Assembly (NCBI GenBank): GCA_016841045.1
Contig: JAENZX010000008.1
Span: 1-64,000, forward strand
Reading direction: 5' to 3'
DNA: 64,000 nucleotides
Source: Thermincola carboxydiphila
GTDB taxonomy: Bacteria > Bacillota > Thermincolia > Thermincolales > UBA2595
In this document: one piece after another, positions 4,152-60,873 of the stretch
How positions within the stretch are numbered: the first letter of the stretch is position 1
How the letters are laid out: the number at the start of each line of letters is the position of its first letter
The notes under the pieces: generated by a model
Seen by the model: the letters and a program-made list of their open reading frames with translations, nothing else
Told to the model about the DNA's origin: nothing
Databases searched by the model: none
Position numbers and translations under genes: made by a program

Positions 4152-4743
4152 GGGGGTGTATTGGTTTCGACGGGGGAAGAATTGGCATAGGTAGCGAGCC
4201 GGGGTCCCACAGGCCCGTTAAACAGTGGAACTTAAAATTAATCGACAACGATTTAGCTTACGCAGCTTAATTGCTGCTAAACCCCTCTCTCCTGCTAAGT
4301 TCCGGGTGCGGGGGAAGAGGTCATTTACCGGAGCTGGCCAATCTCCAATTCTCGGAGGGGAGCGGCGAGATTTATCGAGATAGCAAGCAGATAGCCTGTC
4401 GGTAGGCGATTTGTAAGCGAAATTTAAAGTACTTGACTACGCTCGTAGAAGCTTATGTAGGTTCTCTTTCGGACAGGGGTTCGATCAAAATGGTCGCCCT
4501 ATCCAGTGATGGATAGGTGAAAACCCGGCTTTATCGGTGAAGGCTCAGCACGTAATGGTGGTGCTAATACCGAGTGGTATGTGGGGCAACCCAACAGCCG
4601 CGTATCGACTTATAGGCCGCCTACTGGGTGGTACTAGGATGCAGCTTGCTGCATAATACGCCGGGGGACTTGGCTAATCAAGTTCATGATATAGTCAGTG
4701 CCTATACGAAAGTATAGGATAACACGTCCCCTCACCTCCACCA
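4152..4743 (+). ncRNA. ssrA: tmRNA (ssrA), interrupted by a group I intron
   Basis: The 5' acceptor strand GGGGGUG (4152-4158) pairs with CACCUCC (4733-4739), followed by ACCA. The 5' signature ggtttcgacgggg is present. The tag-coding segment ends GAC AAC GAT TTA GCT TAC GCA GCT TAA (4236-4262), giving ...DNDLAYAA; the resume codon was not fixed with confidence. Pseudoknot-forming GC-rich segments follow, then the T-arm agggGTTCGAt, which is broken after position 59 by a 241-nt intron (4486-4726). Removing the intron restores a normal T-loop and acceptor stem. tmRNA rescues stalled ribosomes together with SmpB encoded just upstream. Confidence 0.95.
4486..4726 (+). mobile_element. Group I intron in the tmRNA T-loop
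   Basis: This 241-nt insertion splits the T-loop between positions 59 and 60. The 5' exon ends in U and the intron ends in G, as group I introns require. The conserved core is visible near the 3' end: cttggctaatcaag followed by ttcatgatatagtcagtgcc, the typical P3-P7 strand with its guanosine-binding segment. There is no ORF inside. Group I introns at this tmRNA site are known from other bacteria. A second copy at 6688-6928 reads the same at every position compared. Splice sites are inferred by comparison with intronless ssrA fragments nearby. Confidence 0.9.
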
Positions 4744-4837: not shown

Positions 4838-5923
4838 TTGGAGGTGTTTATCATTAGTTTCGTAGAAAACACCTGTTTATATTGTGGTAAGGTATTTTTG
4901 GTACCTGCGAAAGAAATTAATAGAGGAAATGGCAAATATTGTTCCCGAAGTTGTGGGACTAGTGCAAGAAACCATCGTGATAATCGTTTCTTCTATCATA
5001 AGTTGTCAAATAACGATTACTTTTTTCATGATATTAACTTAAGGGATGGGAATTATATTGCAGGTCTTGCTGATGGCGAGGGAAGTTTTCTTATATGCCT
5101 TGATAGATTAACTCAACGGTTAAGGGCAAGTTTTAAAGTAGAACTGACGTTAGGAGATAAAGACATTTTAGAGTGGATATGGTCAGTTTTTGGCGTTGGT
5201 CATAAATATTTTTTACCTCAAAGAGATGAAAAATCCAAACCCGCATTTAGATTTATTATTAATGATTTGGGAAATATCGTTTCCAGAGTAATACCATTTT
5301 TTGAGAAGTTTCCGCTGCAGGGTAAGAAGGCTCAGGATTTTATCAGGTTTAAAACAATAATTAATAACTTTATAAAAGAAGCTACAAGTGGACAAAGAGA
5401 TGTTGCACGTTTTGCCAAGGAAGTAGCAAAATTAAATAAAGAATATATCAGTTGGGACAGGACTGGGATTAAGATTTTAGATGGTAATTATCTGGCAGGG
5501 TTAACTGATGGAGAAGGAAGTTTCGCTATTAGAATCTCAAAAGATGAAAAAATGAAGACCGGATTTAGAATTAAACCTGTTTTTTCCATTCAGCTATCTG
5601 AAGTTGACGAGGCACTTTTACAAAGTGTTTGTAAAACTTTGAATTGTGGTACAGTTAGAATAGATAAATCACGAAAAATTGCTGATTTTTCAGTGCAGTC
5701 GCTAGATGATATTCAAAAGTATGTTGTTCCGTTTTTTAACCGGAATAAGCTGAGGGCAAAGAAAAAACATGATTTTAGATATTTCAAAAAAATTATTAAA
5801 ATGTGTAGAGAAAAAGAACATTTGACTAAAAAAGGGGTTCGTAAAATATACGAAATTAGAGAACAAATGAATAGTGGTGGAGTTCCAAATAGAATAAAAC
5901 CGGAATTTTTTAAAGGAAGTTAG
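4838..5923 (+). CDS. LAGLIDADG homing endonuclease with N-terminal zinc finger
   Basis: 361 residues. An N-terminal Cys4 cluster (CLYC about 13-16, CSRSC about 35-39) precedes two LAGLIDADG helices, GNYIAGLADGEGSF (about 70-83) and GNYLAGLTDGEGSF (about 216-229). The two copies indicate a single-chain enzyme that cuts a long asymmetric DNA site and so spreads its host intron or itself. It lies outside the ssrA intron, about 95 nt after the ssrA 3' end. Its stop codon is followed within 5 nt by an ssrA 3'-end remnant. Start uncertain: TTG at 4838 lacks a good site, while GGAGGTG (4840-4846) would fit an unusual ATT start at 4853. Confidence 0.88.
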   Translation: MEVFIISFVENTCLYCGKVFLVPAKEINRGNGKYCSRSCGTSARNHRDNRFFYHKLSNNDYFFHDINLRDGNYIAGLADGEGSFLICLDRLTQRLRASFKVELTLGDKDILEWIWSVFGVGHKYFLPQRDEKSKPAFRFIINDLGNIVSRVIPFFEKFPLQGKKAQDFIRFKTIINNFIKEATSGQRDVARFAKEVAKLNKEYISWDRTGIKILDGNYLAGLTDGEGSFAIRISKDEKMKTGFRIKPVFSIQLSEVDEALLQSVCKTLNCGTVRIDKSRKIADFSVQSLDDIQKYVVPFFNRNKLRAKKKHDFRYFKKIIKMCREKEHLTKKGVRKIYEIREQMNSGGVPNRIKPEFFKGS

Positions 5924-14978: not shown

Positions 14979-15217
14979 ATTGTTTGCGGGAACTAATTTA
15001 TACCTACAGAATTTTCGGGTGACTATAGTTTGGGTTTAACCTTCGCAAAACGTGTAAGTACTTGGGACGGCACTGGCTGCCATCCATTTTAAGTCAAAAA
15101 ACCAGAATATATAAGTTTAATATGCAGGATTGCAGCCATGTATGTAGAAATATGACATAATACTACTTTTTGGAAGTAAAGACGAAAAATAAAAAAATAA
15201 AAAAATATGTGTCCATT

Positions 15218-15300
15218 GAAAAAAGGCAAACCCGTTGAAAATCGGGGACGCAAAACCAAGGGTCTAAAAGCACATAGTGCCAAGACAGCCGGTTGCCAAG
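15218..15300 (+). promoter_or_regulatory. c-di-GMP-I riboswitch (GEMM)
   Basis: Class I aptamer: aaaaaggcaaac starts P1, then the conserved GNRA-type loop region gacgcaaaaccaagggtcta, and gacagccggttgcc closes the second arm and P1. It senses c-di-GMP. A hairpin with a T-rich tail at 15321-15345 stands between the aptamer and the downstream lipoprotein-GGDEF/EAL operon and probably is the expression platform. Confidence 0.92.
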
Positions 15301-18512: not shown

Positions 18513-20639
18513 ATGTTTTTGAGGAAACGGTTTATCAGTAAGTGGGTTTCGGTTTTATTAGCTTTTTTGTTTGTTTTACCTGTTTCACCGGTATTTGCGG
18601 ATGAACAGAGCATTTCGAATGCAGAACTGACTTATGCCGTGGGCACGAGTGATCTAGATGTAGAAAATTTTATTTATGATGTGCAGACGGCCGTTTACCA
18701 AAAATATGGCATCAACAGTGATAAAATCAAAATAACCAAAGCGGGAGCAACAATAGTTGATTCAAAAAATGATTTTAACTGGACCATTTATGATCACTAT
18801 TATTCTCAGGATTATCCTGGAAATGGTGCCGAACCTGTAGACTGGGCGGTCTACCATCCGGCAACCCAGCCATATTTTTACTATGCGGAAGGCTACTATT
18901 ACATTGATAGGTCAAAATATTTTACCGATGTTGACTTTACAGATGGGTCAATGGATCAATGTTATTTGAGATCAAAGCATATTTATCCAAAGGATGATGG
19001 CCTTATTTTTTTGGGCTACAGCCAACCGGCTTTTAAGGATTTTATGCTTTACCCCGACCAAAATACTAGTGAGAAAACCATTGAGTTTACAATCGATGAA
19101 AGTGGTGTCAGCACGCATACTCTTGAAGGAGCAGGTTTCCTTTTTAATGCAGGAATTGATGATAACAAGCTGAATGGCTATCTGGTGTTTTATAACTATA
19201 CTAACAGTACCATTGAGCTATACAAATTGTCCAATGTTGATGCTAGTAACTTCCACAACGAGCAGGGTTATGACATCTCTGATTTAAACATAGAAGGAAT
19301 CGAACTGATTGCTAGAAAGGGTTGGGGTGGCAGCGAAGCGCAGTTTTATTCCTTTGCAGATCCCGTTACGAACCAGAACAGCGAAGAGTATAAGAAACTG
19401 CAGGGATCTAGAGTTCAACTGCTGACTGGGGATGAGAGCAGTGATTCGACTAAAGACATTAAAGTTCAGGTAACTGCCAATTCATTGAAGTTTTATGAAG
19501 ACGATGTGGTCATTTTTGATACGACTGGGGATGATTCCGACATAGTAATAGAAGATACCGGCGTAGGAGGATTTGGACCTCTTGTGAGCTACAGAAGTCA
19601 CTCCTGCGAGCAGTTAAGTTACTTTACTTTTAAAAATCTGACTATGGAAACCTATCGTCCATTGTCATTCATGGATTTAATCAGTCAACAGACCTGGGGA
19701 GAAAATACAAAAAGGTTTATTGTCAATATCGATGACGACGGTGTCCCGGAGTTTTCCAACGACAGAGACTTGAGTCAAATTGCTTCGTACATGAATGAGA
19801 ATGGTGTACATTACATTGGGTGGGGTAGGAATGGCAGATTGGAAGAAGTAGCATCAGCGGTTTACAATAAAGACCAGGCGGCAGGATTGATTAGAAGCAC
19901 TGGCAACAGGGGAATATTCTTCGATATTGACGACTCTGACTATGATACCTACCAAAAAGGAATAGATGCCATTGCTGAATATATCTACAGCCAGCTTGTT
20001 GTCAATGAAGAAGACAACGATAGTCATCATCATCACAGTGGAGGAAGCTCCGGCGGTTCAATCGTACAGCCGCCTGCTGTAACCTTCAGTGATATAAAAG
20101 ACCATTGGGCTCAGAATGATGTAGAAAAGCTCGCAGGACTCAAACTGCTTAACGGGTATCCCGACGGTACATTTGGTCCTGATTATACCGTGACCAGAGC
20201 TGAATTTGCCGCAATGCTGATGAATGTATTTGAATATGCGGATTTGAAGCCTACTGTCAGGTCATCTGTCTATTTTTCTGACGTTTCAGAAGGTCAATGG
20301 TATTATGATTGTGTCAGTCGTATGGCACAGGAAGACGTTTTGTTTGGCTACGGAGATGGCACATTCAGGCCAGAGAAGCAAATTACCCGGGAAGAAGTTG
20401 CAGCCATGATCACCCGAATGTTAACCAGATTTGAAATTACAATGAATGACTCCGAATTGACATTCAAGGATGCTGACTATATTAGCTGGTGGGCCAGAAA
20501 TCCTCTGGGGAAAATTGCTCCAATGGACATTATCAGAGGTATGCCCGATGGTACCTTTAATCCTGCAGACAACGCAACCAGGGCGCAGGCGGCAGTAATG
20601 ATTCTTCGTATGCTGGAAAAGTCGAAATTTTTTAGTTGA
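18513..20639 (+). CDS. Secreted S-layer-homology (SLH) protein
   Basis: 708 residues. A signal peptide (VSVLLAFLFVLPVSPVFA, cleavage about 29) is followed by a large region of unknown fold (30-500) rich in Asp, Tyr and Asn. Then comes a linker with HHHH and GGSSGGS, then three SLH repeats (about 525-705) with the usual FSDIKDHWAQNDVEKL, GYPDGTFGP, GYGDGTFRP and GMPDGTFNP motifs. SLH domains bind pyruvylated cell-wall polymer, so it is anchored on the cell surface. The N-terminal part may bind or cleave sugars, but no catalytic motif was recognised. An ssrA fragment begins 3 nt after the stop. Confidence 0.9.
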   Translation: MFLRKRFISKWVSVLLAFLFVLPVSPVFADEQSISNAELTYAVGTSDLDVENFIYDVQTAVYQKYGINSDKIKITKAGATIVDSKNDFNWTIYDHYYSQDYPGNGAEPVDWAVYHPATQPYFYYAEGYYYIDRSKYFTDVDFTDGSMDQCYLRSKHIYPKDDGLIFLGYSQPAFKDFMLYPDQNTSEKTIEFTIDESGVSTHTLEGAGFLFNAGIDDNKLNGYLVFYNYTNSTIELYKLSNVDASNFHNEQGYDISDLNIEGIELIARKGWGGSEAQFYSFADPVTNQNSEEYKKLQGSRVQLLTGDESSDSTKDIKVQVTANSLKFYEDDVVIFDTTGDDSDIVIEDTGVGGFGPLVSYRSHSCEQLSYFTFKNLTMETYRPLSFMDLISQQTWGENTKRFIVNIDDDGVPEFSNDRDLSQIASYMNENGVHYIGWGRNGRLEEVASAVYNKDQAAGLIRSTGNRGIFFDIDDSDYDTYQKGIDAIAEYIYSQLVVNEEDNDSHHHHSGGSSGGSIVQPPAVTFSDIKDHWAQNDVEKLAGLKLLNGYPDGTFGPDYTVTRAEFAAMLMNVFEYADLKPTVRSSVYFSDVSEGQWYYDCVSRMAQEDVLFGYGDGTFRPEKQITREEVAAMITRMLTRFEITMNDSELTFKDADYISWWARNPLGKIAPMDIIRGMPDGTFNPADNATRAQAAVMILRMLEKSKFFS

Positions 20640-31549: not shown

Positions 31550-32920
31550 CTATAGGGACTGGTATTCAAAACCAGCAAGGTGCACTGCGTAGGATATAGG
31601 AAGGCTGAAAACCTGGGATGCCCAATCGGGGAAGTCAACCATATGGCTTCTTGGAACCATTCCCGGGTTTCCGTTTGCTTCCAGAAGACAGGGCTTTCCA
31701 GATTGGTCCACTACGACATCAAGTCCGAGTTCTCCAAGAGGCCCATATTTCTTGTCAAGGGCGGCTGCTGTCCTGATACCTAACTCAACCAGTGAATTGA
31801 TAAAATTATCTTTAGTAGTTCCAAGCTTATATTCGATATCATTGAAAAGCTTCTTCAAAGGGACGAATTCACTGGCGCCTGCGGCATGATTGGTTAAAAA
31901 GGAACTGCCGGTTGCTGCATTAGTGAAAATTGCGGGTACCAGCCATTTTCCGTTACCGCTTTTACATAACATGATTCGGAAACAAAAAGGTTGACTTTTG
32001 TATCCCAATACAGAGATAGCCTCTTGGATAATATACCATCTCCGCGGGTGCCTAGATGCCTGTAACTTGTTGAAAACCTGCTGAGGGCTAGTCAGCTTTT
32101 CTTCTAACACCTGGCCCTTTGCCATATACAGACATTTTACCCCGTTTGGCTCCAATGAGGCCGTAACAATTCCCCGGCCCTTCATGCCTGTAAGCGGTTT
32201 AATGAAAATTTTGCCGTGTTTTTTCAATAGGCTTTCAATATCAAGAGCAGAAGTACAGAGTCGTGTTTCAGGCAAATGGTTTTTTAGAAGATTGTCTTTA
32301 TATAAGGCAATATAAAAATTCAGCTTATTAATCATGGTATTTTTATTAAAGATTTTTCCCTTACCTATATGTTTTTCAAGCTTTTTGTGGGTCCGGTAGG
32401 CACTTGGGTAACACCTGTCGATCACTGCATCGGGGTAAGGCAGATCAGCGAGGAGCCAGGTCCTTGTAGAAGAATCGAAATAGTAGCCCTTGATAGTATT
32501 GTTTTTGCTATTAACTCCCTGACTGCTGAAAACATACAGGAGGCCACTTTTTAACATTGCATGGTAATTTATATAAAAACGGAATCTTTTCTTTGCATAA
32601 GTGTAGGGGAATGTAAGGATTCCAATGATTGGTCCAAGGCGCAGCTTTTGTTTACCTGTACGTTTAAAAACTAATTTCACGTCTGGCGGTATATGGAGTT
32701 CCTGTAAAACTTTTTCGGATATTTTTATATCAGCTTCGGTTTGTAGGTCGTTAGGATTCGACTGAATGACATTTACTAAAATTGTTAAATTACCAAATTG
32801 GAGTTCTACTGGGTTTCTCGGGTCTAATTTCAATTGGTTAATAACATTAGGACAAAACTTTATCACCAGTTCATCAGTTTCCAATCTCAAAACCTTACAG
32901 ATTATGGTTTCATCGGCCAA
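31550..32920 (-). CDS. YheC/YheD-type spore-coat-associated ATP-grasp protein (paralog 1)
   Basis: 456 residues. The N-terminal part is beta-rich (LRLGPIIGILT, then YYFDSSTRTWLLADLPYPDAVIDRCYP). The C-terminal ATP-grasp domain has IFIKPLTGMKGRGI, LEEKLTSP and GELGLDVVVDQSGKPCLLEANGNPG, the Mg-ATP site. The family is tied to spore coat or exosporium in Bacillus; the reaction is unproved but ATP-grasp enzymes usually ligate carboxylates to amines. TTG start after GCAGGAGATGAA. Paralogs are at 51390-52703 and 55156-56514. Confidence 0.9.
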   Translation of the reverse strand: MADETIICKVLRLETDELVIKFCPNVINQLKLDPRNPVELQFGNLTILVNVIQSNPNDLQTEADIKISEKVLQELHIPPDVKLVFKRTGKQKLRLGPIIGILTFPYTYAKKRFRFYINYHAMLKSGLLYVFSSQGVNSKNNTIKGYYFDSSTRTWLLADLPYPDAVIDRCYPSAYRTHKKLEKHIGKGKIFNKNTMINKLNFYIALYKDNLLKNHLPETRLCTSALDIESLLKKHGKIFIKPLTGMKGRGIVTASLEPNGVKCLYMAKGQVLEEKLTSPQQVFNKLQASRHPRRWYIIQEAISVLGYKSQPFCFRIMLCKSGNGKWLVPAIFTNAATGSSFLTNHAAGASEFVPLKKLFNDIEYKLGTTKDNFINSLVELGIRTAAALDKKYGPLGELGLDVVVDQSGKPCLLEANGNPGMVPRSHMVDFPDWASQVFSLPISYAVHLAGFEYQSL

Positions 32921-46194: not shown

Positions 46195-46758
46195 ATGTCT
46201 GTTGGTATCGATATTGAAAATTATTTAGGACAAAATTGTGAGAATAGGTTAATTGCGGTTGAATATGTTGGTGGAGACTGCTGTAAAAAGGCGGTTGGTA
46301 TTCTGGGTTCTGTTGCTCCAAACTACATAGAACTAATCAGTAATACTGATACTTGCCCTTATGTAGGAATAACAGTATATAACAGGAACAGCCAAACTAT
46401 CCAAGAGCGCGCCGAAAATATGATAATTATGAAAAATAACATAATTTCTATAGAGAGTGAGCCTTACGTTAATTATCGTTTGCGTCGGGACTCGGAAGTT
46501 GACACAAATAAGAACTTAGTACACACTCCAGAAGTGGACGTACTAGGTGAATATTTGCTACAGGAGAGTGAACAAAAAAGTGAAATAATAAGGGATTGCG
46601 AAGAAGAGAAACAGGAAATAGACAAATTAGCCATTTTAGGGACCAAACAGAATGAACTGGTTTTCAAAACACTATCCGAGGACTCTAGCTGGAATTATGT
46701 AACAGAGAATGAGAGTTTTATTGAAGAGCCAGAAGATAGTTGGGATGAAGAAGAGTAA
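46195..46758 (+). CDS. Hypothetical acidic protein, possible spore-coat type
   Basis: 187 residues. An N-terminal beta-rich part (1-85, with GGDCCKKAVGILGSVAPNYIELI) is followed by a highly acidic helical tail ending EEPEDSWDEEE. No family was recognised. The N-terminal text about restoring or tolerating a surface (AVGILGSV...ISNTDTCPYVGITVYN) resembles small coat/LSM-like beta-barrel proteins of spore formers, but that is only an impression. Strong AAAGGGGAAA site before ATG. A family b terminator lies about 125 nt after the stop. Confidence 0.65.
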   Translation: MSVGIDIENYLGQNCENRLIAVEYVGGDCCKKAVGILGSVAPNYIELISNTDTCPYVGITVYNRNSQTIQERAENMIIMKNNIISIESEPYVNYRLRRDSEVDTNKNLVHTPEVDVLGEYLLQESEQKSEIIRDCEEEKQEIDKLAILGTKQNELVFKTLSEDSSWNYVTENESFIEEPEDSWDEEE

Positions 46759-47705: not shown

Positions 47706-48743
47706 TTATAAATCTTTACTATATTCTTTTATTCTTTGCAAAACTCGTATTTTCTCTTTGCCTTCTAAAGGAGTGGGCTGAAAATTGTTTCTGTCCTTTA
47801 CGGAGGACACTGAACAAGGAATAATTTCATTGTCTTCATCTATTAAGTTACCGTTTTTGAACGTGAAACTGTGCTGGTATATAAAGGTGTCTTTGTCTTT
47901 GGGATTCAGAAGTCCGCCGAAACAGAAATTACCTAAACTGTAGATTATTTTTTTGTTCTTATAAGTTTCAATTCCCTGAATTACATGAGGGTGATGTCCG
48001 AGTACTAAATTAGCTCCATTATCAATTACAAAATGAGCTAATTTTTTTTGTGATAACAACGGATAGTGTGTAAATTCTTTTCCCCAATGGAAAGATACTA
48101 TTACTAAGTCGGCATGTTTTTTCATATATTCTAAATCATCTTTTATCTTTTGTTTTTTCACATTGCCGGAATTGCGCCAAACCTTATAACCAAGTAATCC
48201 AATTCTTATTTCTTTTACAACCACAATTGGTCTATACTCATAGTTCAAAAAACCAACCTCGGGGTTTGTACTTTCAAAAATATCACTGCCATAAAACTTA
48301 ATGCCTGCTGTTTTTAGAGATTTAATAGTATCTTCATAACCCGCTCTCAAATAATCATGCATATGATTATTTGCAATGTTTATTATCTCTACATTTCCAT
48401 GTTTCAGAATATTGACATATGAAGGATCTCCCTTAAATCTAAACCTTTTTTGTTCTTTTTCCGTGGCGTTCGTTAACGGGTTTTCCAGGTTTACAATTGT
48501 TAAATCATCTTTTGCGAAAATAGGCTGTACATTCTTAAAAAAATATGAATAATCATTGTTTGCTTTTTTTAGTTCATAAGTAAAGGAATTATGATAAGGA
48601 TATCTTTCGGAGGAGCCTAGAGTACAATCGCCAGCGGCACTTATTGTTATGTTTTGAACTTCAGAGCCAAGTATATCCGGATTTTTTAGGTGGTATGCAT
48701 GACCAGAAAAACTTGAGCCGGATTGAGTTTTATTTCCCCCCAT
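47706..48743 (-). CDS. CapA-type metallophosphatase (PGA_cap family)
   Basis: 345 residues. CapA/PgsA core: ISAAGDCTLGSSERYPYHNS (metal-binding Asp), VNLENPLTN, NIANNHMHDYLRAGYEDT, VSFHWGKEFTHYP and LGHHPHVIQGIE, all typical of the poly-gamma-glutamate capsule family related to calcineurin-like phosphatases. In capsule systems CapA acts outside the membrane, but here no signal peptide or membrane anchor is seen. The N-terminus reads MGGNKTQSGSSFSG. It may work inside the cell or mother cell, for instance on spore layers. No capB or capC is nearby. GAGAGGAGA before ATG. Confidence 0.88.
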   Translation of the reverse strand: MGGNKTQSGSSFSGHAYHLKNPDILGSEVQNITISAAGDCTLGSSERYPYHNSFTYELKKANNDYSYFFKNVQPIFAKDDLTIVNLENPLTNATEKEQKRFRFKGDPSYVNILKHGNVEIINIANNHMHDYLRAGYEDTIKSLKTAGIKFYGSDIFESTNPEVGFLNYEYRPIVVVKEIRIGLLGYKVWRNSGNVKKQKIKDDLEYMKKHADLVIVSFHWGKEFTHYPLLSQKKLAHFVIDNGANLVLGHHPHVIQGIETYKNKKIIYSLGNFCFGGLLNPKDKDTFIYQHSFTFKNGNLIDEDNEIIPCSVSSVKDRNNFQPTPLEGKEKIRVLQRIKEYSKDL

Positions 48744-48841
48744 AAGTAGTCTCCTCTCTTAAATACGTTTTTGGTTCGTTATTTTATGTATTTATGTAAT
48801 TCAAAAGCCAGCAGAGATGCTGGCTTTTTTATGTCAGAAGG

Positions 48842-49654
48842 TCAAAGATTATTTTGCATGTGTTCTACTTCAATACCATTGATAAAGATTTTTTCCTGTT
48901 CATCAGAATGTATTTCTAAAATTTCATTATTATAAACTATTTTGATTCTAAGGTCACTGACGTTGTTGGGATTATTTAATATAGCTTTTTGTTTAATTTT
49001 TTCAAAATTTTGGAGAGCATTTTCGATTCCATTTAATTTCACTTCTCCTGTCTCATCGGCTTTCATTTCTAAAATATTACCATTTTTATTTAGAGTTAGT
49101 GTTACTTTAAATGGCTTTTTTAACTTGCCTTTTGTGTTTCTGATATCTTTGCTTACCTTTATATTCTCTTCCGGTTTAACACCATCTTTATTGGTTTCTG
49201 GTTCAACTGACGTAGAATTGCTATATACCGTATTATTGCCGTTTTCAGAAGACGACTCTGCCTTCTGCTCATTCATGCTGCTCTGTTTGTTATCTTGTTT
49301 TGCTGTTGCTTCTGAGCCTTCATTAAGGGCTACTGCTACAACCGCACTTTGGTAGTTATATTGTGTTTGATCAGTTACCTGAGCTTGATTTATCTCGGCT
49401 TCAGAATTTTGACAAACATCTATTTTACAGTTGCAAGTCATGTTGGTGTTTTGAGCACTTGAATTTCCTTTCTGACAATTAGAATTCTCCTGATAGGAAT
49501 TTTGTTCAGCAACTGCAGTCCCTCCGCCTTCTGCAATTGCAACTGCAGTTAATTGAAGGCTGGAGTTAGATTGATTCGCATTTTGCTCTTGTATGCTGAC
49601 TGCACTGGCCAGCTGATTAATTTGGTTTTTATATAGCCCGTTACTCATCATCAT
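48842..49654 (-). CDS. N/Q-rich AVAIA-repeat protein 3
   Basis: About 270 residues. Two repeat segments (about 15-60 and 85-125) follow Q.QN.NQSN...Q..AVAIAEGGGTA.A.QN..Q.NSN. A Ser/Asn/Gln linker with several Cys (CNCKIDVC) comes next, and a C-terminal domain (about 165-270) is made of strands ending KIFINGIE. No signal peptide. Start: ATG 49654 with GAGGAGA in front (49651 or 49648 also fit). It overlaps the end of protein 2 by 14 nt, so the genes are translationally coupled. Longer upstream reading in the frame is not supported. Family not recognised. Confidence 0.72.
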   Translation of the reverse strand: MMMSNGLYKNQINQLASAVSIQEQNANQSNSSLQLTAVAIAEGGGTAVAEQNSYQENSNCQKGNSSAQNTNMTCNCKIDVCQNSEAEINQAQVTDQTQYNYQSAVVAVALNEGSEATAKQDNKQSSMNEQKAESSSENGNNTVYSNSTSVEPETNKDGVKPEENIKVSKDIRNTKGKLKKPFKVTLTLNKNGNILEMKADETGEVKLNGIENALQNFEKIKQKAILNNPNNVSDLRIKIVYNNEILEIHSDEQEKIFINGIEVEHMQNNL

Positions 49655-50345
49655 GTCTCTCCTCATTGCCCGAAGAAATGAATCGGTTATCGTCAATTTT
49701 CTGCAGTTGAACATCCACCTTCCGGTCATTTACGAGAATGTCACCATTTGAGAGGACTTTTACCTTGAACTTTTGACTCCCTTTAACAATATCTACTATT
49801 ACTTTGGTATCTTTTTCCGGACTAGCTTGTGCTTTTATAATTGAGCTGCAGGATTTCTTATTTTCCATCTCTTTTTTTTCTTTACCTTTCTCAGCGTCTG
49901 TAGATAAACCGGAGGATTCACACTCATTCTCATTATCAGCTAAAGTAAAGGTAATCTGAGCATTGTTGTTATTTTGAAAGCTGCTTTGGGTTGCTTCAGC
50001 ATCTCCACCGTCGATTGCAATTGCGACTGCATTCTCTTGAAAATTTACATTAATTTGGTCAACATCTTGATTTTGATTGACACTACTATTAGCATCTTCA
50101 AAGCAGTTATAACAACTGGTGGTGTCTACGTTTATAGCGGTTACTTCGGTATCTTGGCTGTTTTGGTTGCTTTGAACTGAATTTTGCATAGCTCTTGCGA
50201 TGGAATCTTCACCTACTGCAATTGCAACGGCTATTCCCTGCTCATTTATATTTATCTGGGCAACATCCTGGTTTTGAGTGGCTAGGGCTTCAGCTTGCTG
50301 GCTAATTAGCGATCCTGCAGTTTTGATTTTATGAGAGTTAGACAT
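49641..50345 (-). CDS. N/Q-rich AVAIA-repeat protein 2
   Basis: 234 residues. N-terminal repeats (about 18-60 and 75-118) follow QNQDVAQININEQGIAVAIA...GED.A.A.Q...Q.N.NSQ, with alternating Asn/Gln and small hydrophobic residues suggestive of stacked beta strands. The C-terminal part (about 160-210) has VIVDIVKGSQKFKVKVL then NGDILVNDRKVD. No signal peptide and no membrane segment. ATG start with GAGGTGAAC; 32 nt after protein 1, and it overlaps protein 3. Function unknown; the beta-solenoid or amyloid-like look is inference. Confidence 0.72.
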   Translation of the reverse strand: MSNSHKIKTAGSLISQQAEALATQNQDVAQININEQGIAVAIAVGEDSIARAMQNSVQSNQNSQDTEVTAINVDTTSCYNCFEDANSSVNQNQDVDQINVNFQENAVAIAIDGGDAEATQSSFQNNNNAQITFTLADNENECESSGLSTDAEKGKEKKEMENKKSCSSIIKAQASPEKDTKVIVDIVKGSQKFKVKVLSNGDILVNDRKVDVQLQKIDDNRFISSGNEERHDDE

Positions 50346-50377
50346 ATCATGTTCACCTCATTTGATGATATAGATTC

Positions 50378-51154
50378 CTATACTGCAGAAATTTTTTCAC
50401 CATTCACAAATATTTCTCCCGTTTTTGTTAATTCAATTTCTAAGCAAATTTTATCTTCCTCGGTTGCAATTACAATCTTGTTTGCAGTAGGTGTTGATTC
50501 CGTTTTTAGACCTTTTACTTTAGAGCTTACTTGTTTGAATTCGTTTAAAGCAATCATTCCATTTTTCTCCACTTGTATATTCAGCTTTCGTTTATCTTCA
50601 TCTACGGATACGGTTACCTTAATACCATTAAGAGATATAACTGCCTCATCATTAAATACATGCCCTTTCTCAGTTTTCATTTGATTAAAGACAGCGTCCT
50701 GCTTTGGCACATCTTTGCAGTTTGTAATTCCAACAGTATCACCACAAATATTTTCTGCTTCCGCAGTTCCTATCTGTAGATTATTGTTAGTCTGATAATT
50801 TAGTTGAGTAGCTGTTGCCTCAGGTTCTTCGCCGCTAGCTTCGGCATTTGCTTCACTTTGCTGGGACACATTGAGTTGTTCTACAATTTGATTTTGTTCT
50901 ACTTCAGCTTCTGCAATCTGATCTATGTTATTTTCGCTGCAAGAGGGTTCAATTCTATTAGCTGCTGTTGCAGTACCAACTTGTGAATTACTATTGGACT
51001 GTTCGCTAAACTGATATGCAGTTGCGGTGCCTCCGTCTGACGCATAAGCCACAGCCGACAACTGTTCGTTATTGTTTGACTGAGTGACATTTTGTGTTTG
51101 TGTTACGGTAGATTTAGCATGCTGACTCACCATACCACCGGGCCTAATTCCCAT
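50378..51154 (-). CDS. N/Q-rich AVAIA-repeat protein 1
   Basis: 258 residues, first gene of the three-gene operon. Repeat 1 (about 10-52) reads QTQNVTQSNNNEQLSAVAYA with GGTATAYQFSEQSNSNSQ. Repeat 2 (about 78-120) reads EQNQIVEQLNVSQQSEANAE with ATATQLNYQTNNNLQ. A longer C-terminal domain (about 150-258) has two similar strand groups, VISLNGIKVTVSVD and LEIELTKTGEIFVNGEKI. No signal peptide. GGAGGTATTT before ATG. The genes lie between CapA-like and YheC/D-type proteins, so a spore-surface or matrix role is plausible. Confidence 0.75.
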   Translation of the reverse strand: MGIRPGGMVSQHAKSTVTQTQNVTQSNNNEQLSAVAYASDGGTATAYQFSEQSNSNSQVGTATAANRIEPSCSENNIDQIAEAEVEQNQIVEQLNVSQQSEANAEASGEEPEATATQLNYQTNNNLQIGTAEAENICGDTVGITNCKDVPKQDAVFNQMKTEKGHVFNDEAVISLNGIKVTVSVDEDKRKLNIQVEKNGMIALNEFKQVSSKVKGLKTESTPTANKIVIATEEDKICLEIELTKTGEIFVNGEKISAV

Positions 51155-51389: not shown

Positions 51390-52703
51390 TTGTATATCCG
51401 GTGGATTAATGACCAGGAACAGGACAGTATATGCGTATCTCAGAAGACTCTTCAGAAATTTAATATAAACTGCAAAAAAATCACGCTTCATTTGGGAACG
51501 TGGAAGGAAAGATTGCACGTTAAGCTTCATGACGAGTTAGACGAAAATACCATTGGATTAGTCAGCCGCCTCCTACAGATTTTTACAGTTCCCGATACCC
51601 TTCATTATGAGATATATCTGGAAGGTGATGATTTATATGTTGGGCCGGTTATTGCTGTCGTTGTGCGGAAAGGAAATCTATCACAGAAACGTTTGGGTTT
51701 TTGGACGGATTACTGCCAGAATTATTCGGAGATAAGGGGATTAATATATTTTTGTATGGTGGATGGAATTGACATAAATACTATGACCATTAAGGGATAT
51801 TATTACGACCCGAATGTGGAAGGACCAGAACAATGGAAATCAGGGGTTTTTCCTTATCCAGGAGTAGTATTTCAGCGAACTGAGATAGGGCAGGATATTT
51901 TACAAAATTTGTCGACGCATGTGGATGGTAAAGTATTCAATGCCAAGCTGTTTAATAAATGGGAGATGTGGGAAGTGTTGTCTGAAACAGGGTTTACCTA
52001 TATGCCTCATACAGTCCTGCTAGACGGGCCCGAACGCCTAGAACAGATGCTTGGTCTTTACGAGTCGGTTTATCTGAAGCCTATACAGGGGCGATTAGGG
52101 ATTGGTATTCAAAAAGTGGAGAAGTTACCAGAGGGGTTCTTGTTTGGAGATGAATCGGGTTTTAAAAAAAGGGTAGATGATGTGGCTCAGGTGTGGCGAT
52201 TGGTCAACAAATATAAGAGAAAAAGAAAATATCTTATCCAACAGGGTGTACCATTAATACATGAGGGCAAACCGGTGGATTTCCGGGTAATTTTGCAGAA
52301 GGATGGTACCAAGGAGTGGACCTGCTCGGGAATCATTGCGAAGTTGGGCTATTGGGGGCGGATATATACAAATACTCCATCGGCTATTTGTTTATTTCGT
52401 GATGCTTTACAGATGATTTTTGGTTTAACTCCTGAACAGGCATTGGAAGTAGAATTTAAAATAGAAGATAAAATCATTAAGATTTGTATAGAAGCCTGTC
52501 AAATCATGGAGCGTGCTTTTGGAATTTATGCTGATGTAGGTATCGATTTGGTGTTGGATAAGGACCTTAACATTTGGATTCTGGAAATCAACAAGATTCA
52601 CCAGCATACGATGGTAAAATACGTTCAAGATGCCCCGGAAATGTATCACCGGGTGGTATCCAAGCCTTTGGCTTATGCAAAAGCACTGGCAGGATTTAAA
52701 TAA
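51390..52703 (+). CDS. YheC/YheD-type ATP-grasp protein (paralog 2)
   Basis: 437 residues, TTG start with GGGAGGCGG before it. Motifs: VGPVIAVVVRKG, GYYYDPNVEGPEQWKSGVFPYP, VYLKPIQGRLGIGIQKV, YLIQQGVPLIHEGKPVDFRV, ADVGIDLVLDKDLNIWILEIN (the Mg-ATP site ends in EINKIHQH where the other two copies have EANGNPG). This is the more divergent of the three paralogs. It is divergent from the N/Q-rich operon, with about 235 nt between the starts that must hold both promoters. Confidence 0.88.
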   Translation: MYIRWINDQEQDSICVSQKTLQKFNINCKKITLHLGTWKERLHVKLHDELDENTIGLVSRLLQIFTVPDTLHYEIYLEGDDLYVGPVIAVVVRKGNLSQKRLGFWTDYCQNYSEIRGLIYFCMVDGIDINTMTIKGYYYDPNVEGPEQWKSGVFPYPGVVFQRTEIGQDILQNLSTHVDGKVFNAKLFNKWEMWEVLSETGFTYMPHTVLLDGPERLEQMLGLYESVYLKPIQGRLGIGIQKVEKLPEGFLFGDESGFKKRVDDVAQVWRLVNKYKRKRKYLIQQGVPLIHEGKPVDFRVILQKDGTKEWTCSGIIAKLGYWGRIYTNTPSAICLFRDALQMIFGLTPEQALEVEFKIEDKIIKICIEACQIMERAFGIYADVGIDLVLDKDLNIWILEINKIHQHTMVKYVQDAPEMYHRVVSKPLAYAKALAGFK

Positions 52704-55155: not shown

Positions 55156-56514
55156 TTAATTATGTGTTTGAAAACCGGCTAAGTGACAAGCATAATCAAG
55201 TGGGTATTGATAAACCTGAGTTCGCCAGGAAGGATAATCAGACTGGAGGAATGCGGCAATTTTTGCAGGATTACCGTTAGCTTCGAGGAGCCACGGTTTT
55301 CCCTTTTTATCTATAACAAAATCTACTCCCAGCTCTCCAAGCGGTCCGAATTTTTCATCAAGAGCCATTGCTGTCTTGACTGCAAGATCTTCGAGAAGTT
55401 TTAAGAAGTCATTTTTTGTATGAGAGATATGATTACTAATTACAGTAAATAATTTTGACAGCGGGATTGCTGCTCCCCCTGAAGAAAAATTAGTGACATG
55501 TCTCGCACCTAAAGAACCAAGGACTAATATTCCTATTACCTTCCATTGGCCTTTACCGTTTTTTACGGGAGAAACACGCAAAGAGAATGGCCCTCCCTCG
55601 TACTGCATACAGTCTACGGCCTGCTGAATGATATATTTCACTTTATGTTTGGTGATTTTTTTTAAGATGTCGGAAACCTCACTCAGGGAGTCAACTGACT
55701 TGGTAACATCTTTGTTCTCTGATGTATACCTGCATTCATATTTTCCTTTTGGAGTTTTTTGTATACTTATTATGCCTTTGCCTTTCATAGCGTTTGAGGG
55801 TTTAAGATAAATATGGCGATATTTATCAAAGAAATTATCTAAATCTGAAATTGTCTTCATAACCTTTGTTTCAGGGATATAGGTTCTGAGATATTTATTT
55901 GCTGCTAACACCTTTGCGAAGTCAATCTTGGTAATCATTGTTTTTTTGTTAAAAATCCTTCCAGGACCTATGACTTTAGCCAGCATAGCATGACTTGAAT
56001 AGTTGTTTGGATAACAGCGGTCTATTACCGCATCTGGAAAAGGGAATTCACCTTTAGTCCAGGTTTTTTTATTGATGTCATAGGTGTAGCCGCTAATTGT
56101 TCTTTGTTTTTGGTTAAGCCCCTTACTGCCAAAAATATAAAGTAAGGTGCCATTGGTATTCATGTAAAAGTATGTTTTGTAGTAGTCAAGTCTTTTGGGA
56201 ATGTGACTGGAAAAAGTGAGAATGCCGATAATCGGACCAAAGCGGAAACTTTTGTTTCCTTCCTGCTTGATATGAAGCTTGGTATCATATGAAAGTCCAA
56301 GAGCTGATTTAATATCGGGAGAAATTCCTATGTCCTTTTCTCTCTGCGGTCTCTGTTCAGATTGAAATGATTTGACAATGGCAGCTGCGGATTTTGAGCC
56401 ATAATTTAATGTGACAGTGTCATTGTCCTGCAGCTTAAATATAGACATTAGTTTTGCGGGAAGCTTCCAGATCTTCATTTTATCTTCGGCTTTAAATATT
56501 TGATATACATTCAT
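55156..56514 (-). CDS. YheC/YheD-type ATP-grasp protein (paralog 3)
   Basis: 452 residues, close to the 31550-32920 protein: FRFGPIIGILTF, YTYDINKKTWTKGEFPFPDAVIDRCYP, IYLKPSNAMKGKGI, GELGVDFVIDKKGKPWLLEANGNP and a final DYACHLAGFQ. The shared ending with paralog 1 (Y.CHLAGF/YAVHLAGF) and the equal spacing indicate a common origin. ATG start; no good GGAGG site is visible, only a weak AAGGATAAT. Expected to act in coat or exosporium formation. Confidence 0.9.
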   Translation of the reverse strand: MNVYQIFKAEDKMKIWKLPAKLMSIFKLQDNDTVTLNYGSKSAAAIVKSFQSEQRPQREKDIGISPDIKSALGLSYDTKLHIKQEGNKSFRFGPIIGILTFSSHIPKRLDYYKTYFYMNTNGTLLYIFGSKGLNQKQRTISGYTYDINKKTWTKGEFPFPDAVIDRCYPNNYSSHAMLAKVIGPGRIFNKKTMITKIDFAKVLAANKYLRTYIPETKVMKTISDLDNFFDKYRHIYLKPSNAMKGKGIISIQKTPKGKYECRYTSENKDVTKSVDSLSEVSDILKKITKHKVKYIIQQAVDCMQYEGGPFSLRVSPVKNGKGQWKVIGILVLGSLGARHVTNFSSGGAAIPLSKLFTVISNHISHTKNDFLKLLEDLAVKTAMALDEKFGPLGELGVDFVIDKKGKPWLLEANGNPAKIAAFLQSDYPSWRTQVYQYPLDYACHLAGFQTHN

Positions 56515-60629: not shown

Positions 60630-60750
60630 TTGTTACATCATTGCGTAAAGGATAGAAAATATTCGAAAAGCTTTAAAAAATTAATATAATTAGAGAAATT
60701 TGTTGACAAGACAACCATTTTGTGATAATTTTTATGTTACAAAATAATAT

Positions 60751-60829
60751 TGAAAAAGGCAAACCTTCCGAAAGGCGGGGGCGCAAAGCTAAAGGGCCTA
60801 AAACGAAAGTAATGGCAGCCAGTTACCAA
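60751..60829 (+). promoter_or_regulatory. c-di-GMP-I riboswitch (GEMM) 2
   Basis: aaaaaggcaaacc opens P1, cgcaaagctaaagggccta is the conserved core, and atggcagccagttacc closes. Its layout is the same as 15218-15300. A promoter-like TTGACA (60701-60706) with TGTGATAATTTT downstream stands in front. It controls the alpha-oxoamine synthase gene. Confidence 0.93.
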
Positions 60830-60873
60830 TATGACATAAATCTATCAAGCATAATTTTAAAGTTGGTTATCGG

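Follow-up and report, generated by a model that had tools for sequence, protein, structure and literature searches.

A 54–55 residue Gln/Asn-ladder repeat in three tandem genes of Thermincola carboxydiphila matches haloarchaeal exported proteins and may define a new family of surface structural proteins

In this study, we asked what kind of proteins are encoded by three tandem minus-strand genes, here called A, B and C, which an open reading frame check placed at 48842–51154 of the window (the whole 64,000-nt stretch of Thermincola carboxydiphila DNA analysed; Table 1). A sequence-only reading of this DNA had described them as coupled genes for repeat proteins without a signal peptide, of no recognised family and possibly forming a surface fibre on spores. 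The tandem arrangement was confirmed, with 32 bp between A and B. The start of gene C overlaps the stop of gene B and a GGAGG-type ribosome site precedes each of the three genes, indicating that the coupling is real; an alternative longer start for gene C, at 49729, falls within gene B and is unlikely to be used. Searches against the genome's own proteins gave 38% identity of B to A (residues 5–207 of A) and 30% identity of C to A. The GC content is 38–39% for A and B and 39% for the window, and is lower (35%) for C. All three proteins are enriched in Gln and Asn and contain four cysteines each, of which residue 72 in A, residues 78 and 81 in B, and residues 74, 76 and 81 in C lie within or close to the linker that joins the repeats. 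Direct reading of the three N-termini revealed no hydrophobic or twin-arginine segment, which upholds the described absence of a signal peptide. We judge A, B and C to be tandemly duplicated structural proteins, with moderate confidence in the structural role.

Table 1. Features of the A/B/C locus and of the related loci discussed in the text. Positions refer to the window unless a contig label is given; repeat E-values are those obtained with profile A3.
Feature	Positions	Strand	Description	Evidence
Gene A	50378..51154	-	258 aa; two repeats, then C-terminal beta domain with two motifs	ORF with GGAGG ribosome site; own-genome match
Gene B	49641..50345	-	234 aa; two repeats and shorter C-terminal domain with one motif	ORF
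Gene C	48842..49654	-	270 aa from MMMSNG start; two repeats and C-terminal domain with two motifs	ORF, overlap
Repeat A1	50957..51118	-	54 aa	E = 1.2e-19
Repeat A2	50750..50914	-	55 aa	E = 2.4e-18
Repeat B1	50130..50294	-	55 aa	E = 1.2e-17
Repeat B2	49932..50093	-	54 aa; modelled as hairpin, pLDDT 57	E = 3e-19
Repeat C1	49448..49609	-	54 aa	E = 3.3e-16
Repeat C2	49241..49405	-	55 aa	E = 4.5e-16
C-terminal motif A, first copy	50528..50626	-
C-terminal motif A, second copy	50381..50485	-	GEIFVNG
C-terminal motif B, sole copy	49710..49811	-
C-terminal motif C, first copy	49013..49114	-
C-terminal motif C, second copy	48857..48955	-	EKIFING
CapA-like gene (PGA_cap), downstream of C	47706..48743	-	signal peptide not visible	PF09587, E = 1.2e-59
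YheC/D-type ATP-grasp gene, divergent from A	51390..52703	+		PF14398 at 51930-52688
YheC/D matches in the window	31577-32356, 51930-52688, 55180-55959		among the 15 of the genome
BclB-type exosporium gene, relative G007	L069:5669-6202	+		TIGR03721 full-length, E = 5.8e-64
Single-repeat genes, Haladaptatus	L015: 2747-3079, 3992-4324	-	annotated hypothetical	Sec-type N-termini
Single-repeat genes, Natronorubrum	L018: 4213-4569, 4578-4928	-	annotated hypothetical	Sec-type N-termini

The N-terminal half of each protein consists of two copies of a repeat of 54–55 residues, so the two copies first described stand and their proposed length of about 40 residues does not. The N-terminal halves of A, B and C align with one another at z = 12–17 against shuffles, and within each protein the match of repeat 1 to repeat 2 exceeded all 300 shuffles. 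The repeat is genuine. Alignment of 21 units, drawn from two domains of life (this bacterium and haloarchaea), gave the consensus A.A.V.Q.Q.V.Q.N.N.Q..A.A.A...S.A.A.Q.S.Q.N.N.Q.A.A.A.N, with eight of the 54 positions invariant and five near-invariant. Nearly every second residue is fixed, as Ala, Val, Gln or Asn that would line a single side of an extended strand, with a single change of parity between positions 19 and 22, in keeping with the regular beta-type alternation that had been proposed. The element QxNxNxQ occurs twice, at positions 13–19 and 40–46, as mirror images about a DGG/GGS turn at 28–30, the two ladders being joined by AVAIA-DGG-ATA. Two antiparallel strands that pair their ladders would be expected to show such mirroring, and the repeat would be a long beta-hairpin whose Gln/Asn ladders pair and whose tip is lined with alanine. 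Structure prediction, which had been suggested as a check, gave models too poor to decide: the AlphaFold2 model of whole protein A was unusable (pLDDT 35), and that of one repeat, built on the alignment of the six window copies, placed strands at 7–21 and 40–54, compatible with a paired-strand hairpin at low confidence (pLDDT 57). A Foldseek search with the single-repeat model returned generic long hairpins only, none below E = 0.27.

The C-terminal parts of the three proteins are of beta type and have low similarity to one another. They share a second, weaker repeat of about 33 residues, K[VI].[VI]...K..L.I.....G.I..NG, of which B lacks the terminal copy. The sum-of-pairs score of the five-copy set was 320, against a shuffle mean of 138 and maximum of 193, and exceeded all 1000 shuffles. 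The GEI.VNG-type element first noticed here therefore holds as a motif, which is itself repeated, and not as an ending common to all three proteins.

No protein of the trio gave a match above threshold in Pfam, NCBIfam or PHROGs, in agreement with the earlier statement that no family was recognised; matches to TDP-43_N, CopZ and similar Pfam or NCBIfam models (E 0.001–0.04) were far below the cut-offs and were set aside as chance. The spread among spore formers, another suggested check, was followed within the same phylum with a single protein, the three-protein profile and the 21-repeat profile as queries. The sets comprised 61 genomes, 398 genomes (searched again with an extended profile), 399 of another class and 83 of a third; they overlap, and the number of distinct genomes is estimated at about 870, including eight of the same family. 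The repeat was detected in none of these outside its own genome. Viral contigs and phages contained nothing matching. A collection of 84,980 genomes, scanned with narrow patterns from protein A and from the three-protein alignment, yielded no confirmed relatives; the scans missed the haloarchaeal homologues described below, so their sensitivity was low and their result is not proof of absence.

When plasmid records were searched at the protein level with gene A, ten records were returned, all of them haloarchaeal (best E = 4e-5). Full-length reading of three matched proteins showed each to be long and to begin with a Sec-type or twin-arginine segment; a PGF-CTERM anchor is present in two of them. 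A profile made from the six window repeats only detected exactly five copies, all of them full-length, in every one of nine haloarchaeal proteins of about 500–650 aa, at 33–65 bits per copy, and one copy in each of four short proteins that are about 110 aa long and have an N-terminus of Sec type. The single-repeat proteins scored 29–51 bits with the window profile and 44–65 bits with a haloarchaeal one. Their genes, a pair in Haladaptatus and a pair in Natronorubrum, lie no more than a few kb from a five-repeat gene and encode candidate fibre subunits; further single-repeat proteins of this size were found elsewhere. In the opposite direction, a haloarchaea-only profile recovered all six window copies at 34–61 bits (E = 5e-15 to 9e-7 at Z = 1e6). 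On these comparisons we hold the archaeal match of the window repeat with very high confidence. Since the haloarchaeal proteins made up of the repeat carry export signals or surface anchors, its general role is probably in extracellular structure, which supports the surface role proposed for the trio. A, B and C have the full-length repeat of this haloarchaeal AVAIA/QN family and not its export signal or anchor.

The genome encodes SpoIVA (SpoIVA_ATPase, E = 5.5e-119) and thus belongs, by gene content, to an endospore former. The neighbours had been named as CapA-like and YheC/D proteins, and both identities hold. The YheC/D ATP-grasp model has 15 matches in the genome, 13 of them strong, which is unusually many for one genome. 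The YheC-type gene divergent from gene A has orthologues in two related genomes (57% identity). In one of them (G007) the orthologue is divergent from a gene for a 177-aa BclB-type exosporium protein, which occupies the slot of gene A here; in the other (G008, contig L068) no exosporium gene adjoins it. The arrangement in G007, together with SpoIVA, supports the spore context that had been suggested. Between gene C and the CapA-like gene, a self-complementary AGCCAGCA/TGCTGGCT inverted repeat was read from the sequence at about 48802–48831, and a terminator scan did not report this element. Upstream of gene A no consensus sporulation promoter pattern (sigma-E/K) was matched; by eye, AC-N17-AATACAATA is one mismatch from a sigma-K-like pattern, a resemblance that may be due to chance. 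A strict pattern match precedes another YheC gene, at 56514.

Several other features of the window were recorded. A sigma-K-like pattern lies upstream of 46195–46758 (+), whose product of 187 aa has an acidic tail at its C-terminus and no family above cut-off. The product of 18513–20639 (+) looks secreted and has an SLH domain and a His-rich linker. Two c-di-GMP-I riboswitches were found: one, at 15215–15300 (+), lies upstream of a gene for a phosphate-binding-like lipoprotein, and the other, at 60748–60830 (+), upstream of a gene for a BioF-like aminotransferase. An ORF for a LAGLIDADG-like homing endonuclease (4838–5923, +) follows shortly after an uninterrupted tmRNA gene (4160–4487), and Rfam at its gathering threshold reported no group I intron.

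Taking these data together, the explanation that we prefer, at roughly even chances for the whole, is that A, B and C represent a new beta-hairpin repeat family of structural proteins that are made in the mother cell, placed on the spore surface and held partly by cysteine cross-links. Stacking of the hairpins along their edges would yield a fibre or sheet; the proteins would be synthesised in the mother cell and assembled on the spore surface, where the cysteine-rich linkers may cross-link them. The mother-cell and spore-surface part rests on the lack of an export signal, the cysteine-rich linkers, the presence of SpoIVA and the divergent YheC-type gene, and we consider the spore-surface location itself about evenly balanced. 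Against the preferred explanation stand the origin of the haloarchaeal homologues in non-spore formers, the low AlphaFold2 confidence, the lack of a significant Foldseek match, the lack of a strong sporulation promoter and the neighbourhood in G008.

A plausible though less likely alternative is that the proteins assemble into genuine cross-beta amyloid fibres, with a function like that of curli but a repeat unrelated to theirs, either on the spore or within a biofilm matrix. The Gln/Asn ladders, the imperfect tandem repeats and the alternating strands are consistent with this, and staining of Haloferax biofilms with Congo red and thioflavin T has been reported, with the responsible protein only guessed (PMC4180959). 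However, each protein has only two repeats and a separate C-terminal domain, and neither the three-protein profile nor the 21-repeat profile gave a significant match among solved structures. Membership in the curlin family, which the sequence-only reading had brought to mind, was rejected: the Pfam model Curlin_rpt (PF07012) had no match in any of the three proteins, even at E up to 1, and was absent from the genome and from 12 relatives, with a positive control in E. coli.

It is quite improbable that A, B and C belong to the surface or matrix of vegetative cells, leave the cell by non-classical export and have no tie to sporulation. The haloarchaeal relatives are indeed surface proteins of non-sporulating cells, but a signal peptide is present in every haloarchaeal relative examined and is not visible in A, B or C, and the divergence of the neighbour's orthologue from a BclB gene in a relative also argues against a purely vegetative role.

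We think it similarly doubtful that the likeness between bacterium and archaea reflects convergence on one beta lattice rather than ancestry. Such convergence would fit the extreme patchiness of the repeat (one in about 870 bacterial genomes and otherwise haloarchaea), the dominance of lattice residues in the match and the fact that the flanking domains are not common to both groups. Nevertheless, the match is colinear over the full length, both groups have the parity change between 19 and 22 and a common order of ladders, and the profile is silent in hundreds of other genomes. When the odd and even positions of haloarchaeal repeats were shuffled separately, so that alternation was preserved, the highest score in 1400 trials was 14.6 bits, against at least 48 bits for 14 real copies; the likeness therefore lies in the order of residues and goes beyond composition and alternation. 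From these comparisons, the simplest reading is that the bacterial and archaeal repeats share ancestry, and we hold it with high confidence.

That A, B and C are mostly disordered, low-complexity Gln/Asn-rich cytosolic proteins (prion-like or hydration-related) is very improbable: their composition and the low AlphaFold2 confidence would suit this, but 13 of 54 sites are conserved position by position across two domains of life, in order and not just in composition.

Returning to the beta-hairpin repeat family, its sharing with archaea is the main new fact: the repeat is a structural unit, defined by sequence and present in two domains of life, that has no entry in Pfam, NCBIfam or PHROGs. The haloarchaeal repeat genes are testable candidates for matrix proteins, and A, B and C are candidates for a spore-surface layer in poorly sampled spore formers. 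As a tentative extension, less probable than not, the repeat may be a self-assembling beta-hairpin module with mirrored Gln/Asn ladders that serves on archaeal surfaces and on bacterial spores, possibly a new functional-amyloid family with single- and multi-repeat forms in haloarchaea and a cysteine-linked form on spores. Its regular lattice makes it attractive for structure determination and fibre design.

Among known systems, the exosporium proteins BclA and BclB and the Ena appendage proteins are beta-rich, cysteine-containing subunits without a signal peptide. A, B and C resemble them in their proposed spore-surface location, the absence of a signal peptide and the presence of cysteines, and BclB itself adjoins the YheC orthologue in a relative; they differ in matching no Pfam or NCBIfam model and in lacking the collagen-like GXX repeat. 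Like the curli proteins CsgA and CsgB (PF07012), they have imperfect tandem Gln/Asn-bearing beta repeats and a proposed structural role at the surface, but the Pfam model spans 34 positions and the present repeat 54–55 residues; the analogy, of tandem Gln/Asn beta repeats that might stack, is kept as a working hypothesis. The short haloarchaeal proteins of about 110 aa have the repeat in common with A, B and C and differ by their signal peptide, their very short length and the lack of a C-terminal domain. The five-repeat and PGF-CTERM proteins from plasmids of Haladaptatus, Natronorubrum, Haloterrigena, Halomicrococcus and Natrononativus differ in having five repeats, a Sec- or Tat-type N-terminus and, in some, a PGF-CTERM anchor; they are encoded by single genes, in them cysteines are rare among the sequences read, and they do not share the C-terminal domain of A, B and C. 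What they do share is the 54–55 residue repeat itself, which matches over its entire length with the profile from either side.
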